64,000 nucleotides of DNA, taken from contig NZ_JAJFZL010000001.1 of NCBI RefSeq assembly GCF_020733635.1, positions 5,580,001 to 5,644,000 of the forward strand. The letters run 5' to 3'. The stretch's first letter is position 1. Each line of letters opens with the position of its first letter. The notes under the pieces were generated by a model. The model saw only the letters and a program-made list of their open reading frames with translations, was not told where the DNA came from and did no database searches. Below, in pieces: positions 11,293-17,638 of the stretch. The DNA comes from Nocardia spumae. Lineage in GTDB: Bacteria > Actinomycetota > Actinomycetes > Mycobacteriales > Mycobacteriaceae. The position numbers were made by a program, and so were the translations under genes.

Positions 11293-11886
11293 ATGTCCTT
11301 GCGTGAGCGGCAACGGCGGCAGATTCGGCAAGAAATCCAGCGGGCGGCATTCGCCCTGTTCGTGCGATCGGGATTCGACGAGGTGACCACCGACCAGATC
11401 GCGGCGGCGGCGGGCGTCTCACCGAGCACGTACTTCCGGCATGTGCGCAGCAAGGAGGATCTGCTACTGGATCCGGTCCGCGAGGGCGGCGCCGGAATCG
11501 CCGCACTCCTGGAAGCCCGCCCCGGCACCGAGCCCGCCGACGTCGCTCTGGCGGCCGCGATCCTCAGCCGCTCGGCCGCACTGGGATCGGAGGAACTCGA
11601 GCAGTGGCGCGCGGCCTTCGCGACCGCCCCGCACCTGCTCGATCGGGTCGCCCTGATTCCTCCGGATCATCGAGTGCGACTGGTGGAACTGGCCGCTGAT
11701 CGGATGGGGACCGATCCCGGATCCGACAGCGGCCCGGGGCTGCTGGTGCATCTGATGCTCGCGGCGGCCGAGTTCGGCTATCTGCAATGGCTACGCAATA
11801 CCGACAACCCGGCGGCCTCCCTGCCGGTGTGCGTCGAAGCCGCGCTCGACGCGGTACTCGGCGACCGCTGGCGTACCGCGCGATGA
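11293..11886 (+). CDS. TetR family transcriptional regulator
   Basis: A 197-residue TetR regulator. The helix-turn-helix is clear at residues 27-60: FDEVTTDQIAAAAGVSPSTYFRHVRSKEDLL. The C-terminal ligand-binding half is Ala/Leu-rich and not diagnostic. GGAGG lies 9 bp before the ATG. It is 37 bp upstream of and co-oriented with the KstD gene, so it probably controls steroid or steroid-like oxidation along with itself, through the operator at 11214-11228. Confidence 0.9.
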   Translation: MSLRERQRRQIRQEIQRAAFALFVRSGFDEVTTDQIAAAAGVSPSTYFRHVRSKEDLLLDPVREGGAGIAALLEARPGTEPADVALAAAILSRSAALGSEELEQWRAAFATAPHLLDRVALIPPDHRVRLVELAADRMGTDPGSDSGPGLLVHLMLAAAEFGYLQWLRNTDNPAASLPVCVEAALDAVLGDRWRTAR

Positions 11887-11923
11887 GGTCCGCGACCATT
11901 TCGACCGAACAGGAACAACTCTC

Positions 11924-13612
11924 ATGACGAGCAACAGCGCAAGCGACGCGTTCGATGTGGTCGATGTGGTCGTCGTCGGCTCCGGCGCGGCCGGGATGAC
12001 CGCCGCGATCACCGCCGCCCGCCACGGCCTCTCGGCGGTCGTGGTGGAGAAGGCCGGTCGATGGGGTGGCTCGACGGCCCGCTCCGGCGGCGGGGTGTGG
12101 ATCCCGGGCAACTCGGTACTGCGCCGTGAAGCGCCGGACGACGACATCGCCTCCGCCCGCGCATATCTCACCAGCATCATCGGACCGGCCGTCGCCGCCG
12201 AGAGGATCGACACCTACATCGACCGCGGCCCCGAGGCTTTCGAGTTCCTGGCCGCGCACACACCACTGCGGATGAGCTGGGTTCCCGGCTACAGCGATTA
12301 CTACCCGGAGGCACCGGGCGGACGAGCCCACGGCCGCTCGGTCGAGCCGAAACCCTACGACGCCACGGCACTCGGTGCGGAATTGGCGACGCTGGAGCCC
12401 GACTATTCGAAGGCGCCGCGCAACTTCGTGCTCACCCAGGCCGACTTCCGCCAGATCCACCTGGGCCTGCGGAACCCGCGAACCCCGCTGCGCGCCATGC
12501 GGATCGGCGCGCGCTGGCTGACCGCCACTATCCGGGGCCGCCATCTGCTGGCGCGCGGGCAGGCACTGAGCGCGATGCTGCGCCACGGCATGCTCTCCGC
12601 CGGGGTACCGCTGCTGCTGGACACCGCACTGGTCGAACTGTGCACCGCGAACGGCCGGGTCACCGGAGTCGTCGTGCGGCACGACGGCCGGGAGCGGACC
12701 ATCACCGCCCGGCGCGGCGTCGTCATCGCATCCGGTGGATTCGAGCACAACGAGACGATGCGCAAGCAGTATCAGCGCCAGCCGATCGGCACCGAGTGGA
12801 CCGTCGGCGCCGCCGACAACACCGGTGACGGCATCCGGGCGGGTGAGAACATCGGCGCGGCAACGGCCTTCATGGCCGACGCGTGGTGGGGCCCGTCGAT
12901 CCCGCTGCCCCGCACCCCGTGGTTCTGCCTGGCCGAACGCAATCTGCCCGGCAGCTTGATCGTCAACGCGGACGGGACGCGATTCATGAACGAATCACTG
13001 CCGTACGTCGAAGCCACCCACCGCATGTACGGCGGGGACAACGGGCAGGGCGAGGGCCCCGGAGTGAATCTCCCAGCGTGGTTGATCTTCGATCAGCGGT
13101 ATCGCAACCGCTATCTGTTCGCGGGTCTGCCGCCGCGGCAACCGTTACCGCGGCGGTGGTTCGACAGTGGCGCGCTGACCCGGGCGGCGTCGATCGGCGA
13201 GCTCGCCGAGGCCATCGGCGTTCCGGCCGACCAGCTCACCGGAACCGTCGACCGCTTCAACTCCTTCGCGCACAACGGCGTCGACGAGGACTTCGGTCGT
13301 GGCGAGAGTGCCTACGACCGCTATTACGGCGATCCACGCCAGCGGCCGAATCCCAATCTCGGCGCACTGGTCGAGGCCCCGTTCTACGCCGCCCGGCTGG
13401 TCCCCGGCGACCTGGGCACCAAGGGCGGTCTGGTCACCGATAGTGACGGCCGGGTCCAACGTGGTGACGGCACCGTCATCGAGGGTCTCTACGCCGCCGG
13501 CAATGCCGGCGCCCCGGTCATGGGCCACACCTACGCCGGACCGGGCGCCACCATCGGCCCCGCCATCGTGTTCGGATATCTCGCGGCCCTGCATGCCGCC
13601 GCCGGTGGCTAA
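11924..13612 (+). CDS. kstD: 3-ketosteroid delta-1-dehydrogenase (FAD)
   Basis: A 562-residue flavoprotein that introduces the 1,2 double bond into 3-keto-4-ene steroids during sterol ring degradation. The FAD dinucleotide-binding motif VVVGSGAAGMTAA is at residues 16-28, followed by the KstD hallmark GGSTARSGGGVWIPGN. Candidate active-site tyrosines occur in NESLPYVEATHRMYGG and in the C-terminal GHTYAGPGATIGPA, which also binds flavin. Length fits the family. It follows a TetR gene and ends overlapping the stop of the converging Nudix gene. Related FAD-dependent 3-oxosteroid dehydrogenases with other specificity cannot be excluded. Confidence 0.85.
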   Translation: MTSNSASDAFDVVDVVVVGSGAAGMTAAITAARHGLSAVVVEKAGRWGGSTARSGGGVWIPGNSVLRREAPDDDIASARAYLTSIIGPAVAAERIDTYIDRGPEAFEFLAAHTPLRMSWVPGYSDYYPEAPGGRAHGRSVEPKPYDATALGAELATLEPDYSKAPRNFVLTQADFRQIHLGLRNPRTPLRAMRIGARWLTATIRGRHLLARGQALSAMLRHGMLSAGVPLLLDTALVELCTANGRVTGVVVRHDGRERTITARRGVVIASGGFEHNETMRKQYQRQPIGTEWTVGAADNTGDGIRAGENIGAATAFMADAWWGPSIPLPRTPWFCLAERNLPGSLIVNADGTRFMNESLPYVEATHRMYGGDNGQGEGPGVNLPAWLIFDQRYRNRYLFAGLPPRQPLPRRWFDSGALTRAASIGELAEAIGVPADQLTGTVDRFNSFAHNGVDEDFGRGESAYDRYYGDPRQRPNPNLGALVEAPFYAARLVPGDLGTKGGLVTDSDGRVQRGDGTVIEGLYAAGNAGAPVMGHTYAGPGATIGPAIVFGYLAALHAAAGG

Positions 13613-14280
13613 CCGTCGAACGCCCACACGGCGGCGGGACGGCCGGTGGCCTTCACCCGCGCGCGTTCGCCGGTGCGGGTCAGGCCCGGGATGGCGGCGA
13701 GGGTGCGGTTGAGATTGCCGGGATCGGGGCGGGTTCCGGTCAGGGCCGTGCTCAGCGCTACCGCGCGGGTGGCGGGAAAATGTTCGCCGATCAGGGCCCG
13801 GGTGAAGGTCAGGTCCTTCCAGAGCAGGTCGGCCAGCCGAGTCCGGGCGACCCCGACGATCATATTGTGATCGAAGGCCAGGGGCGGGACCTCATCGAAG
13901 GTGACCCATTCGGTGCCCGGATCGGTTGCCCGGCCGGATAATTCGCCCGCACCGGCCGCTTCGCTCGCGGCCGGATCGCCCAGTACCGCCCACATCGCGA
14001 TCGACAGTGTCGGGCCGCGCGGATCGCGATGCGGCTCATCGAAGGTCACCAGCTGGCCCACCGCCGGGATGCGCTCGTGCGCGACCCCCAGCTTGTCGTG
14101 CACGGCCCGCCTGGCCGCCTCGGCGAGGCGCTCGCCGCGACCGAGGAGCACACCGGGCAGGGCGAGCGCCCCGGCGAACGGATCCCATCGCCGGGGCGCC
14201 ACTCCGAAGGTGACGGTCGGGTCGTCGACGCCGAATCGGAGTGCGACGACATCGAGCGATACGGCCGATTGCTGCTCCAC
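13609..14280 (-). CDS. NrtR-like Nudix/winged-helix regulator
   Basis: A 223-residue protein with an N-terminal Nudix fold and a C-terminal winged helix ending GRPAAVWAF, the layout of NrtR-type regulators that sense ADP-ribose or a related nucleotide. The Nudix box is degenerate: the region reads GERLAEAARRAVHDKLGV, where catalytic REUxEE glutamates are replaced (R-A-V-H-D-K), so it probably binds rather than hydrolyses its ligand. The winged helix spans about 150-223. It is the last gene of a four-gene minus-strand operon, 9 bp after the PurA-like gene. Palindromes of the TAGTC-GACTA type at the operon start are its likely binding sites. Confidence 0.75.
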   Translation of the reverse strand: MEQQSAVSLDVVALRFGVDDPTVTFGVAPRRWDPFAGALALPGVLLGRGERLAEAARRAVHDKLGVAHERIPAVGQLVTFDEPHRDPRGPTLSIAMWAVLGDPAASEAAGAGELSGRATDPGTEWVTFDEVPPLAFDHNMIVGVARTRLADLLWKDLTFTRALIGEHFPATRAVALSTALTGTRPDPGNLNRTLAAIPGLTRTGERARVKATGRPAAVWAFDG

Positions 14281-14289
14281 GGCGAACCA

Positions 14290-15552
14290 TCATGCCGCAG
14301 CCGGGACCCGGACCAGCCGATCGGCACGGTCGGGTCCGTGGCCGGTCAGCACCACCGGTGCGGACAACCGCTGTTCCAGGAAATCCGGCACATCCGCGGG
14401 CATGGGCACCAGATCGGGTGTGCTGTGCGCGACCAGGCCGGTGAGTCGGCGCTGATATTCCAGATCTCGCCAAGGTCCGCAATCCAGCCGGCGCAGGTAC
14501 CCGTCCGCGGTGAAGTAGCCGGCGGCGGTCCGGATATCGCCGCGTCCGGCGATGATGTCGAGATGGTTGACGGCCAGTGCGTCCACTCCGGCGCAGGCGT
14601 CCACCGCATAGCGCAGCAGTATCGGATCGAGATGCCCCACCCGGAAGGCGCCCTGATATCGCCCGGTCGCGTTGTCCGGTTCCGGCATCGACAGCGTCAC
14701 CTCCTCGGTCGGGAAGGGGCCCGCACCGTGCCGAGTCTGGTAGGCGCGCGTCACCCCCAGTACCGCACCGGATTCGCCGATCCCGGCCAGCAGGGCACGG
14801 GCCCGGCGCGGCTCCACCGTCGACCAGGTGGTGTACGGGTGCAGGCCTCGCCACTCGTCGAGCAGTACGCCCTGCGCACCTTCGAAGACCAGCCGGCCAG
14901 CCGCCGCGAACGCGGCGAGCCGGTCACCCGGAACCACCGCCACCACCCGCGCGAATTCGGTGTAGGCGGCGACGAGATCGTCGACCGGATCGTAGCGATG
15001 GCGGCCGGTGGCCAGCAGTGGCGCGTAGTGCTGCTCGAGTGCGATGAGCTTGCGGCGCAGTACATCCGGACGTCGGCAGTCCCGGATCCGCGGTGCGTCG
15101 TGGTCGAGGGCATAGCTCGCGGTCTCCCCGATGCCCATTCCGCACGAACCGTGCCGGGCGGCACCCCGCGCATCCTCCCGGCAACGGTTGGCGGCCCCGT
15201 GGATCGGGGTGGTGAGCAAGGCCCGCTCGTCCACGAACAGCAGCTCCAGTGGATCGCGCACACCGAGCGCGGTCAGCGCCCGGGCCTCGGCGGCGAGGGC
15301 GATCGGATCCACCAGCACATGCCGCGCCAGCAGCGTCGGCACCCCGGACAGCGTGCCGGACCCGAACTGCCGGAAGGTGTGCCGCCGCGGACCCGAGACC
15401 ACGGTGTGCGCGGCCTGCGCACCCCCGTTGAAACGCACCACCGCCGACACGTCCAGCCCGGCCCGCGGCGAGCACAGCCAGTCCACGGTGGCACCCTTAC
15501 CTGCGTCGCCGAATCCCAGATCGACCACGATCACGTGACGGTCGCCGAACAT
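14290..15552 (-). CDS. PurA-like (adenylosuccinate synthetase family) protein with altered active site
   Basis: A 420-residue member of the adenylosuccinate synthetase fold, normally joining IMP and aspartate with GTP. The P-loop-like loop reads FGDAGKGATVDW, where standard PurA has GDEGKGK: the catalytic Asp and first Lys stay, but the Glu and second Lys are lost. The IMP loop GGNNAGHT is GGAQAAHT here, keeping the catalytic His. FEGAQG is intact, but the following DxDHGTYPFVTSSN loop is DEWRGLHPYTTWST. The guanine-binding KLD is HLD. It looks like a paralogue acting on a different substrate, not the housekeeping PurA. It lies between the vWA and Nudix genes with gaps of 15 and 9 bp. Confidence 0.8.
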   Translation of the reverse strand: MFGDRHVIVVDLGFGDAGKGATVDWLCSPRAGLDVSAVVRFNGGAQAAHTVVSGPRRHTFRQFGSGTLSGVPTLLARHVLVDPIALAAEARALTALGVRDPLELLFVDERALLTTPIHGAANRCREDARGAARHGSCGMGIGETASYALDHDAPRIRDCRRPDVLRRKLIALEQHYAPLLATGRHRYDPVDDLVAAYTEFARVVAVVPGDRLAAFAAAGRLVFEGAQGVLLDEWRGLHPYTTWSTVEPRRARALLAGIGESGAVLGVTRAYQTRHGAGPFPTEEVTLSMPEPDNATGRYQGAFRVGHLDPILLRYAVDACAGVDALAVNHLDIIAGRGDIRTAAGYFTADGYLRRLDCGPWRDLEYQRRLTGLVAHSTPDLVPMPADVPDFLEQRLSAPVVLTGHGPDRADRLVRVPAAA

Positions 15553-15567
15553 CGCATCGCTCCTTCG

Positions 15568-16551
15568 CTATCCGAACCGGACCTCGTCGTCACCGGCGGA
15601 TGCGGCCGGCAGGGCGCCCGCGCCATGACCGCGACCGCGCCCCTCGATCGAGGCCAGTGCCCGGCCGACCGCGTCGGCGGCATCGGAACCGATATCGCGC
15701 AGGTCGGCGAGACCGACGCCCAGATCGACGCGGTCCTCACCGATGCCGATGGTCAGCGCGATGAGTTCGCAGACCGCGGCCGGATCCTCCAGGCGCAGCA
15801 CCCTTTCCCCCAGCACTCCCCGCCAGTGCTCGGTGATATCCGGGTCGTTGTAGTAGTGCGATCGGTTGGGCAGGATGTAGTACACCTGCCATCGGTCGCT
15901 CAGCTCCCGGTAGATCGAGGACACCGAGACATCCTGTGTGACCTCGTCTCCGATGACCCGGCGGATGTGCGCGGCCGCGAGCCGCGACTTGTTCAGCTCG
16001 TCACCGACGATGAACAGGTACCCCTTGCGTCCTCGCTTGTCCCAGGCATCGGTGGCGGTGTGCCGGGCCATGAAATACGCTGCCAGCTCGTAGCTTTCGG
16101 ACTTCTGTCCGCCACCGCCACCCTCGAGCAGGATGAGGCGCAGCTGCTCGTCCATGCGATTGTCCGATTCGAACTGCCCGACCTGCAGCGGCACCCGATC
16201 GCAATCGGCGTCGCCGATTCCGCCGAACAGGATCTGCGGATCCTCGGCGTAGCCCTTGCGCTGCAACAGGCCGTGCAGGGTCGCCAGCTTCTCCTGCATG
16301 ACGCGCGGCACCACGCCCATCGATCCGGTGACATCGAAGAGCACCGCGATCGGCAGGGACGCCCCGTGCTCCGCGGAATCTCTCGATTCGCGCGCGCCCA
16401 CCCCGAACGGATCGAGCTGCGGATGGGCAACCCAGGCGGACAACGGTTGTGCTCGCATATCGGCGGTGTAGCCGAAATCGTCGAGTCCGCGGGCGGCGCG
16501 GAAGGTGCGGGCGGCGTCGTAGGCGCTGTCGTCCCACTGTCCGTAACCCAT
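15568..16551 (-). CDS. von Willebrand factor A domain protein
   Basis: A 327-residue vWA protein. The MIDAS metal site is seen as DVTGSMG around residue 95, followed later by a conserved Gly-rich GGGGGQKSESY stretch holding the MIDAS threonine/serine position and FIVGDE as the distal acidic position. The N-terminal 85 residues (YDAARTFRAARGLDDFGYTADM) are conserved-looking but of no named domain. No signal peptide or membrane segment, so it is cytosolic. The ATG at 16551 sits 5 bp after the kinase-like gene and gives the natural start MGYGQWDD; the longer frame is an artefact. In this operon it may be a metal-dependent scaffold. Confidence 0.82.
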   Translation of the reverse strand: MGYGQWDDSAYDAARTFRAARGLDDFGYTADMRAQPLSAWVAHPQLDPFGVGARESRDSAEHGASLPIAVLFDVTGSMGVVPRVMQEKLATLHGLLQRKGYAEDPQILFGGIGDADCDRVPLQVGQFESDNRMDEQLRLILLEGGGGGQKSESYELAAYFMARHTATDAWDKRGRKGYLFIVGDELNKSRLAAAHIRRVIGDEVTQDVSVSSIYRELSDRWQVYYILPNRSHYYNDPDITEHWRGVLGERVLRLEDPAAVCELIALTIGIGEDRVDLGVGLADLRDIGSDAADAVGRALASIEGRGRGHGAGALPAASAGDDEVRFG

Positions 16552-16556
16552 GGTGA

Positions 16557-17567
16557 TCACTGCCCTTTCGGTAGTTCCAACGGCCGGAAACGGCGGCGGC
16601 CGCACAGTCGATCGAGAAGGTCGTCGAATTCGCCGAGCAGGGTGTGCGCGTCGGGCCGCAGTCGCGGGGCCGGCTGCAGACATCCCCGGGCGAAGGCACG
16701 CATCGGCGCGGGCGTGCGCTCGCCGAGCATGGTGAGCAGGAGCCTGTGGGCCTGATACACATCGGTGCGCGGGTCCACCGCCTCGCCGATCTCGGGCGGG
16801 TAGTCGATCGTGGCGAGCGTGGCGGCCGCGGGGCGTCCCGGCCGGGTCGCGAACGACCAGCCCACCAGCACCACACCGTGCAGACGCGGATGGATCAGCA
16901 CGTTGTCGGGGTGCAGCGCGGTGTGGACCCACTGCGCGGTCGCGGCACCGGCCAGACAGCGCAGCAGCCGCCGATGTATCCACGCGTAGTCGCGCGGATC
17001 GAGCCCTCGCGGGTAGGCGGCGCGGACCCGTGCCAGCGTCACGAACTCCTCGGTCAGCGCGCCGAGGACATTCACCGCGCGTACCTCACCGTTCGCGGTG
17101 CCGGCGTGGTCGACGGTGTCGACCGGTCGCGGGAAGTACGGCGCGAGCCATCGATGATCCGCGCTCAGCGCGGCGAGATCGGCCAGCGCATTCCGCTCGT
17201 TCGCCAGTAGCGGGTTCGCGGCGGGCCGGCGCGCGATCTTCACGATCACATCGGGTGCGGCGCGATACAGATCGGCCACCGACCCGCGCGCGTGCATCGC
17301 CGCGAGGCGGTAGCTTCCGTGCCCACCGATCACCTCGACCGTGTCGGCGCCGATGGCCAGCCAGTCGCGATACAGCTCACCCAGGCGCAGGAACGCGGCA
17401 GTGGCCTCGGCGGTGGATGCCCGGTCCGGATGGAGTGCGGCGGCCAGCCGCAGATAGGTCCGATGCGCGTGCCGGCGGGCGATGGAACCGGCGACCCCGG
17501 CCTCGAACAGCTCCTCCGGACGCCCCACCTCCCGGAGGGCCGCTATCGCGTCTCGCGTCGTCGTCAT
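16557..17567 (-). CDS. J-domain plus pseudokinase protein
   Basis: A 336-residue protein with a J-domain-like N terminus (residues 30-75, HPD motif at 46-48 in AAALHPDR) fused to a protein-kinase-like domain. The kinase part keeps the beta-3 lysine (VIVKIARRP) and an alpha-C glutamate (NERNAL), but the catalytic loop is VHTALHPDNVLI, with Ala where HxD has Asp, and the DFG position reads LVGWSFA, with Gly for Asp. Both catalytic aspartates are gone, so it is probably a pseudokinase that binds a nucleotide or partner. A J domain suggests recruitment of DnaK. It is the first gene of the operon. No Shine-Dalgarno precedes the ATG; a TAGACT -10 ends 6 bp before it, so the transcript is probably leaderless. 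Confidence 0.75.
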   Translation of the reverse strand: MTTTRDAIAALREVGRPEELFEAGVAGSIARRHAHRTYLRLAAALHPDRASTAEATAAFLRLGELYRDWLAIGADTVEVIGGHGSYRLAAMHARGSVADLYRAAPDVIVKIARRPAANPLLANERNALADLAALSADHRWLAPYFPRPVDTVDHAGTANGEVRAVNVLGALTEEFVTLARVRAAYPRGLDPRDYAWIHRRLLRCLAGAATAQWVHTALHPDNVLIHPRLHGVVLVGWSFATRPGRPAAATLATIDYPPEIGEAVDPRTDVYQAHRLLLTMLGERTPAPMRAFARGCLQPAPRLRPDAHTLLGEFDDLLDRLCGRRRFRPLELPKGQ

Positions 17568-17591
17568 TGTTTTAGTCTAACTGACTAAAAC
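17568..17591 (-). promoter_or_regulatory. Operator palindrome on the leaderless promoter of the J-pseudokinase operon
   Basis: A perfect inverted repeat, GTTTTAGTC-TAACT-GACTAAAAC (17569-17591), abuts the ATG at 17567. Read on the minus strand it contains TAGACT, placed so that transcription would begin at or next to the ATG. A repressor bound here would block the promoter. TAGTC/GACTA half-sites resemble NrtR-type operators, and the operon itself encodes an NrtR-like protein. Confidence 0.75.
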
Positions 17592-17621
17592 CATCGGGGC
17601 CAGAGCTTCGACCAAATTTTT

Positions 17622-17638
17622 GTTAGTACGACTAAAAC
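17622..17638 (-). promoter_or_regulatory. Second TTAGT/ACTAA operator-like palindrome
   Basis: GTTAGTACGACTAAAAC repeats the half-sites of the operator at 17569-17591, with TTAGT-ACG-ACTAA in the centre and a shorter spacer. It lies about 30 bp upstream of the first site, where a second dimer could bind. Confidence 0.5.

Follow-up and report, generated by a model that had tools for sequence, protein, structure and literature searches.

What could be done together by a J-domain protein carrying a pseudokinase domain (JK), a vWA protein, a divergent relative of the adenylosuccinate synthetase PurA and an NrtR-like Nudix protein? The question is raised by four adjacent genes of Nocardia spumae (assembly GCF_020733635.1, 7.07 Mb), which lie in a 64,000-nt stretch of contig NZ_JAJFZL010000001.1 (positions 5,580,001 to 5,644,000; referred to here as the window, whose numbering is used in Table 1). 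The best explanation, to which a probability of about 0.36 was assigned for the whole of it jointly, is that the operon is a mobile, phage-derived and self-regulated module, induced by NAD stress, whose enzyme would make a product other than adenylosuccinate and which would include an Hsp70-linked scaffold. Judged by sequence, the JK, vWA and NrtR-type proteins are members of known families and the PurA-like enzyme is a new branch of the PurA fold. The assembled four-part system matches none found described in the open-licence full-text literature that was searched.

A profile search with the vWA protein returned at least 522 encoding stretches among genome contigs (of at least 585 pattern matches) and, among viral contigs, 463 (of 488 pattern matches); the best 80 of each were read. 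The bacterial set, consisting of the top matches, is actinobacterial by record title, and some loci are truncated where the contig ends. A PurA-like gene was found on the same strand and no more than 2.8 kb from the vWA gene in 79 of the 80 bacterial and 79 of the 80 viral loci; the two genes were separated by 250 nt or less in 78 of the bacterial and 57 of the viral loci, and elsewhere never by more than 2746 nt. JK was present in 58 loci of either set, and an NrtR-type gene in 74 bacterial and two viral loci. The initial annotation described these as parts not usually found together. This is contradicted by a conserved module that extends to phages, and the rarity elsewhere that would have spoken against a unit was not what the linkage of vWA and PurA-like genes revealed. 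Among 148 Nocardia genomes, the vWA gene occurred in 91 and the PurA-like gene in exactly those 91; neither was present in the other 57, where the PurA-like profile gave just PurA-type scores near 175 bits. Strong JK matches were detected in 27 of the 148, all inside the 91, and a degenerate regulator accompanied the module in all 91. Across the order, vWA was found in 84 of 397 genomes (two of them weak matches, E above 1e-5), and across the phylum in two of 396, the genome of N. spumae included. The distribution of the module is patchy across genus, order and phylum.

A chance cluster was rejected in view of the 91 Nocardia genomes with both genes and 57 with neither, the linkage, and the recurrence of the set at hundreds of loci. 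By gene content, vWA and the PurA-like enzyme form a near-obligate pair and the core of the module in phages and bacteria, with JK as a frequent but accessory and dispensable third gene. The distance matrices of the three proteins were correlated (r 0.93–0.96 for 98 loci and 0.73–0.87 for 35 viral loci, with none of 999 permutations as high), a result that shared descent alone would also produce. The closest vWA relatives among the matches listed were those of N. elegans, N. nova, N. mikamii, N. aobensis and N. cerradoensis (87–89%). All four genes were present in one Rhodococcus and one Tsukamurella plasmid inspected, and versions of the module were found on alphaproteobacterial and Variovorax replicons, plasmid copies among them.

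The PurA-like enzyme carries the main clue to the chemistry. It was aligned, in 64 PurA-like sequences, with 21 true PurAs (from 25 actinobacterial loci, four of which were missed by the motif filter), using the numbering of the host's true PurA. The residues by which PurA is recognised, P-loop Lys16 (63/64), catalytic Asp13 (63/64) and catalytic His41 (64/64), were all found, as were Gln224 (64/64), Thr239 (62/64) and the guanine-site Asp333 (63/64). Other PurA residues were replaced. On the IMP-phosphate side, Asn38 had become Gln in 62 of 64 sequences, Thr129 was kept in three, and Arg143, contributed by the second subunit, in four. In the aspartate loop, Arg303 was kept in two (Gly in 59) and Arg305 in none. 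Lys18 was kept in two, Lys331 was replaced, and Val273 was His in all 64. The scored columns, kept and lost, were each invariant in the 21 true PurAs. In PurA, Asn38 and Thr129 are contacts of the IMP 5′-phosphate, and Lys331 also has a role. According to PMC8342488, Arg303 contacts aspartate and the IMP O2′, and in PurZ the alpha-phosphate is paired with the arginine of the second subunit. By sequence, the PurA-like protein keeps the GTP site and the catalytic Asp and His and has lost the clamps for the IMP phosphate and for aspartate; the initial annotation, which had seen kept catalytic residues beside altered substrate loops in the window protein, was right on this point. The simplest reading would be a GTP-driven enzyme that uses an acceptor other than aspartate and holds its substrate in a manner unlike IMP. 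The loss of several substrate clamps, together with two partners that look non-enzymatic, might instead mean that the protein performs no new chemistry and serves to sense or scaffold, as a GTP-binding subunit of a purely regulatory or chaperone-like module. We regard this as clearly improbable, since the catalytic Asp and His, Lys16 and Gln224 are retained across phages and bacteria, which is more than a pure scaffold would need.

Identity with PurA, or with the phage 2-aminoadenylosuccinate synthetase PurZ, was rejected on model scores, tree and active-site columns. The 64 PurA-like rows grouped together (100/99), separately from the 22 rows of PurA and the two of PurZ. With two purA equivalog models the window protein missed both cut-offs (170 bits against 402, and 124 against 396), and the host PurA scored 634 and 545. 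With the PurZ model NF038379 (cut-off 300) it obtained 31 bits and three relatives 40–54, compared with 364–366 for two Arthrobacter phage PurZ proteins. PurZ resembles the PurA-like proteins in being a phage-borne PurA relative, but Ser is reported in place of the catalytic Asp in all 147 phage PurZ of PMC12884076. The vWA neighbour is a further difference from PurA. On these comparisons the clade is neither PurA nor PurZ. Ordinary nucleotide supply, by an extra PurA or by a PurZ-type enzyme for modified DNA, would agree with the common fold and with phage copies annotated as PurA-like or as '2-aminooxy adenylosuccinate synthetase'; with a true PurA encoded elsewhere in the same genome, the aspartate arginines lost, low PurZ scores in four members and the catalytic Asp kept, it is very improbable indeed, and these phage genes should not be named PurZ-type enzymes. 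The product name '2-aminooxy adenylosuccinate synthetase' is attached both to the PurA-like family and to a PurZ-model hit (examples with the name are L004 7980–9308, L008 7866–8978 and L208 1486–2619), and looks like a mislabel.

The vWA protein is the best conserved of the module, with 87–89% in five nova-group loci compared with 74–76% for JK. Its metal ion-dependent adhesion site (MIDAS), which had been reported as intact in the window protein, was conserved in 55 sequences (D73 in 55, T75 and S77 in 54 each), residues D114, Q123, E128, E152 and D184 were invariant, and the Met-Gly start was conserved. AlphaFold models were made from alignments of 48 vWA and 46 JK sequences. That of vWA had a mean predicted local distance difference test score (pLDDT) of 92.0 and matched integrin I domains (Foldseek, E 1.9e-6, TMt 0.66) and related adhesin domains; a search of its profile against PDB sequences gave mS35 alone (E 0.1), which was discarded. 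A vWA protein adjoins a kinase-fold protein in the TerY-P triads of vWA, kinase and phosphatase too, but in the present module the kinase is dead and bears a J domain, and a PurA-like protein takes the place of the phosphatase. In one genome (G072, C1:6050605-6051539) the vWA gene is in two pieces beside full-length PurA-like and JK matches. A Rhodovulum plasmid copy of vWA (L012 7001–8029) is annotated as a TonB-dependent receptor, and no PurA-like gene was detected in that locus.

For JK, the model had a mean pLDDT of 94.5 and its Foldseek matches were protein kinases. Helices 28–45 and 53–73 stand on either side of HPD residues 46–48, and in 52 JKs the His, Pro and Asp of this motif were present in 52, 49 and 51, respectively. 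HPD was also found in 20 of 21 low-scoring short viral JKs, the remaining open reading frame (ORF) as called starting after that region. The kinase residues were mostly missing: the HRD Asp was present in two of the 52, the DFG Asp in 24 (Gly in 26) and the catalytic Asn in 15, the window JK being devoid of both aspartates. The loss of both, proposed from the window protein, is therefore no artefact of aligning a single protein, and the DnaK connection proposed with it survives as a possible Hsp70 link through the intact HPD. JK is, as far as alignments and models tell, a J-protein/pseudokinase with an intact HPD and a dead kinase fold. Its best Foldseek matches include VRK3 (PDB 2jii), which we take to be catalytically dead, and a DnaJ-PKA chimera (4wb7), at 11–17% identity, meaning the kinase fold and no more; with the chimera the root-mean-square deviation was 25, the two domains not superposing together. 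In one genome (G126, C48:42155-42259), 35 codons directly upstream of vWA match the C-terminus of JK and are perhaps the remnant of a lost JK. The Variovorax JK (L002 4747–5949) has, by eye, a CxxC...CxxC zinc-ribbon-like start in place of the J domain. No general replacement for JK was found in JK-less phages, the family upstream of vWA in L006–L008 matching no other ORF of the set.

Evidence for mobility and phage ancestry came from the phage records and the PurA tree. In 50,697 phage records, vWA had 208 matches (189 Mycobacterium, 10 Rhizobium, 6 Vibrio and 3 others) and JK 190 (189 Mycobacterium and 1 Mycolicibacterium), some of the ∼190 mycobacteriophage records being the same phage counted twice (GenBank and RefSeq). 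Bacterial rows of the PurA tree lie within the viral diversity in two separate places, with at least two changes required by the starred branches; the first place comprises 14 rows (13 actinobacteria and Variovorax, with two viral contigs interspersed) and the second four alphaproteobacteria. The tree tool flags long branches and an unsure join to PurZ. The vWA gene of CharlieB, LolaVinca and other mycobacteriophages matches in two pieces, with one place annotated as an HNH endonuclease, and looks like a case of homing-endonuclease insertion.

The possibility that the bacterial copies serve anti-phage defence, or the phage copies superinfection exclusion, with the PurA-like enzyme making a signal or toxic nucleotide sensed through JK and vWA, would fit the patchy spread (91 of 148, 84 of 397 with two weak, and two of 396 genomes), the differing genomic contexts and the plasmid copies. 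It is decidedly unlikely: a PADLOC scan of the operon gave weak kinase similarity and nothing more, no effector domain was recognised, and the bacterial copies sit within the viral part of the tree, a better fit to a benefit for the phage. In six relatives (L014, L015, L016, L023, L026 and L071) the operon lies at the same site, between uvrD-like, whiB-like and ABC1 genes and a ThiF-like gene (ABC1 assigned by Pfam, the others named by eye); the other 74 bacterial loci lack these flanks within at most 6 kb around the operon. The neighbouring TetR and kstD genes had no tblastn match in any of the six same-site relatives and were rejected as part of the unit. It follows that the operon was probably already at this site in the ancestor of the group and that TetR/kstD arrived separately; the initial annotation, which had the unit inserted together with TetR/kstD, thus stands as regards an inserted, mobile unit and falls as regards their membership. 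The TetR and KstD-like pair (11293–13612) represents either a separate insertion or a loss in the six relatives.

The last gene of the operon is best read, from its profile matches, as its own NrtR-family repressor rather than an effector. Alone, the window protein fell below the Pfam NrtR_WHD cut-off (12.6 bits, with 27 required). A profile built from 10 degenerate regulators matched AraR (5bs6; residues 12–213 of 215, 6e-19) and 3gz5, presumably the Shewanella NrtR (8–212, 2e-17), nearly full length; its best hit, 2fml (4e-22), was best over the Nudix part only. The degenerate Nudix box and NrtR-like winged helix claimed for this protein are thus supported. A perfect 9+5+9 palindrome of 23 bp precedes JK, and a search of the whole genome at up to three mismatches found this site and its imperfect copy only. 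A role as regulator of a wider NAD regulon was accordingly unsupported. Counting from the start of the JK ORF, the palindrome was found at -24/-25 in 30 of the 58 JK-bearing bacterial loci (and in one more, L054, at +11 of an overlong ORF), and in 11 of the 22 JK-less bacterial loci it preceded vWA within 200 nt; it was not found in Amycolatopsis and Micromonosporaceae loci. Both arms change together between genera: GTTTTAGTC in Nocardia and Rhodococcus, GTTTGAGTY in Saccharothrix and Lentzea, CTTTTACTC in one Gordonia and TTTCTAGTC in Tsukamurella. The M. smegmatis NrtR (MsNrtR), according to PMC6800001, binds GTTTTCGA-N7-TCGAAAAC, is released by ADP-ribose (50 mM) and has lost hydrolase activity, its Nudix box being degenerate like that of the window regulator. 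The putative operator shares the geometry of that site, a 23-bp palindrome starting GTTTT, but its core is AGTC, not CGA, and it occurs at this operon only. Two further NrtRs are encoded in the same genome. In a tree with 31 other NrtRs the operon regulators fell into four groups, starred branches forcing at least two changes (midpoint root). We weigh this apparently repeated association with NrtR-type regulators as the best indication of which stress the module may answer. The NAD+/ADP-ribose conflict systems centred on ADP-ribosylglycohydrolase (ARG) likewise place a Nudix-HTH repressor together with a vWA gene (section 3.8 of PMC9503650). The present operon, unlike them, has no ARG (none among its four proteins by Pfam at E 1) and no phosphatase, and PurA-like and J-pseudokinase proteins are not named in that section.

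The phage neighbourhoods are suggestive of NAD and of RNA repair alike. Fifty loci supplied 347 candidates, of which 149 were listed and 106 scanned with Pfam, minus-strand and overlapping ORFs being omitted as judged by eye; 59 families matched, and 25 of them were considered. In L109, a NAMPT gene and a Nudix gene lie between vWA and the PurA-like gene, and L147 has homologues upstream (47% and 33% identity). NADAR was found in one Vibrio phage, an annotated NMN-AT/Nudix in one Rhizobium phage, and TROVE in Vibrio phages. A polynucleotide kinase gene stands beside the module in C1 mycobacteriophages, and clusters with one scanned member each corresponded to R2K ATP-grasp (16 loci), ligase (16), HAD_SAK_2 (11) and exoribonuclease (11). 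The main rival to the explanation preferred here is an RNA-directed enzyme, in which the PurA-like protein would act on an inosine-like base in RNA, most likely tRNA, vWA and JK would handle the ribonucleoprotein, and the phage would gain tRNA repair or protection. A lost mononucleotide phosphate clamp fits a base inside a polymer; polynucleotide kinase, HAD_SAK_2, RtcB, Thg1, TROVE and exoribonuclease are among the phage neighbours; and abstracts of C1 phage genome announcements report 29–34 tRNAs. We consider it unlikely, as no RNA-binding domain was recognised in JK, vWA or the PurA-like protein and the regulator family points to NAD and ADP-ribose. An ATP-dependent DNA ligase near the module in L128 (9241–10875) has an internal HNH/AP2 segment, perhaps an intein.

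The NAD-stress explanation can be set out as steps of falling certainty, from repressor and ligand release to enzyme chemistry and the roles of vWA and JK. The NrtR-type repressor would bind the palindromes over the JK start and hold the operon off, and an ADP-ribose-like nucleotide, accumulating as NAD+ is consumed, would release it. With GTP, the PurA-like enzyme would then activate an oxo group of a base that resembles a purine or a pyridine but is not plain IMP. This substrate, perhaps derived from NAD or embedded in a larger molecule, would be joined to an acceptor other than aspartate. The vWA protein might present the target or hold the complex via its metal site, and JK might bind target or complex by its dead kinase domain and recruit DnaK. 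A phage would benefit by offsetting or rewiring host NAD- or nucleotide-based damage during infection, and bacteria would have acquired the module, at two places in the tree, to respond to that stress as well.

Several observations weigh against this explanation. JK is missing from 64 of the 91 module-bearing Nocardia, and the Hsp70 link therefore cannot be essential. This type of palindrome is missing from roughly half of the bacterial loci. A reversed-pattern control at up to three mismatches also found one place in the genome, so the weaker palindrome copy alone would mean little. Most phages have no NrtR gene, and the regulator gave no tblastn match at E 1e-3 in the 50,697 phage records. 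The degenerate regulator occurs in 19 of the 57 module-less Nocardia; no matching operator was found at the 16 loci read of these (L243–L258), where its neighbours were mixed (an ABC protein with two ATPase domains, aldehyde dehydrogenase, SDR). NAD genes were seen at five of 85 viral loci (L006, L007, L008, L109 and L147), whose neighbours were partly scanned, and RNA-repair genes (HAD_SAK_2, RtcB, Thg1, TROVE, exoribonuclease) were at least as frequent; the NAD link is an association by example, with no enrichment claimed.

A more far-reaching formulation, which we hold to be doubtful, is that of a new enzyme class with a PurA fold, GTP-dependent, modifying an NAD-derived nucleotide or an RNA-embedded base and working only alongside vWA, often with an Hsp70-recruiting pseudokinase as well; it would have spread via tailed phages and been domesticated at least twice by bacteria under independently recruited NAD-stress repressors. 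Through the module, genes annotated 'hypothetical', 'kinase' or 'adenylosuccinate synthetase' in ∼190 mycobacteriophage records and 463 viral-contig stretches come under a single testable identity. Should the product be other than adenylosuccinate, new purine- or NAD-type chemistry would be at work in phage infection. The NAD-stress link is made directly testable by the recurrent pairing with NrtR-type repressors.

The layout of the operon is given in Table 1.

Table 1. Features of the operon and its putative operator in the window
Feature	Position	Strand	Description
JK	16557-17567	minus	336 aa, ATG; J-like N-terminal domain (HPD, residues 46-48) and pseudokinase domain
vWA protein	15568-16551	minus	327 aa, ATG; MIDAS D73-x-T75-G-S77
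PurA-like enzyme, separate clade	14290-15552	minus	420 aa, ATG; PF00709 fold
NrtR-family repressor, putative (Nudix gene)	13609-14280	minus	223 aa, GTG; degenerate Nudix domain and winged helix
Operator-like palindrome GTTTTAGTC-N5-GACTAAAAC	17569-17591		1 nt before JK start codon
Second, imperfect palindrome copy (2 mismatches)	17617-17637		centre 47 bp upstream of first

As ORFs were called, the intergenic gaps are 5, 15 and 9 nt in the order JK, vWA, PurA-like and Nudix, in agreement with the four closely spaced minus-strand genes of the initial annotation. Pfam identified the PurA-like protein as Adenylsucc_synt (2.3e-62) and the Nudix gene as Nudix (1.2e-5). Matches of JK to DnaJ (0.014; 15.9 against 27.8 bits) and APH (0.042) were both below the cut-offs, and no vWA model matched the vWA protein in the Pfam scan, so the J and vWA assignments rest on alignments and models. 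The 3′-end of the Nudix gene overlaps the convergent kstD gene (11924–13612) by 4 nt.

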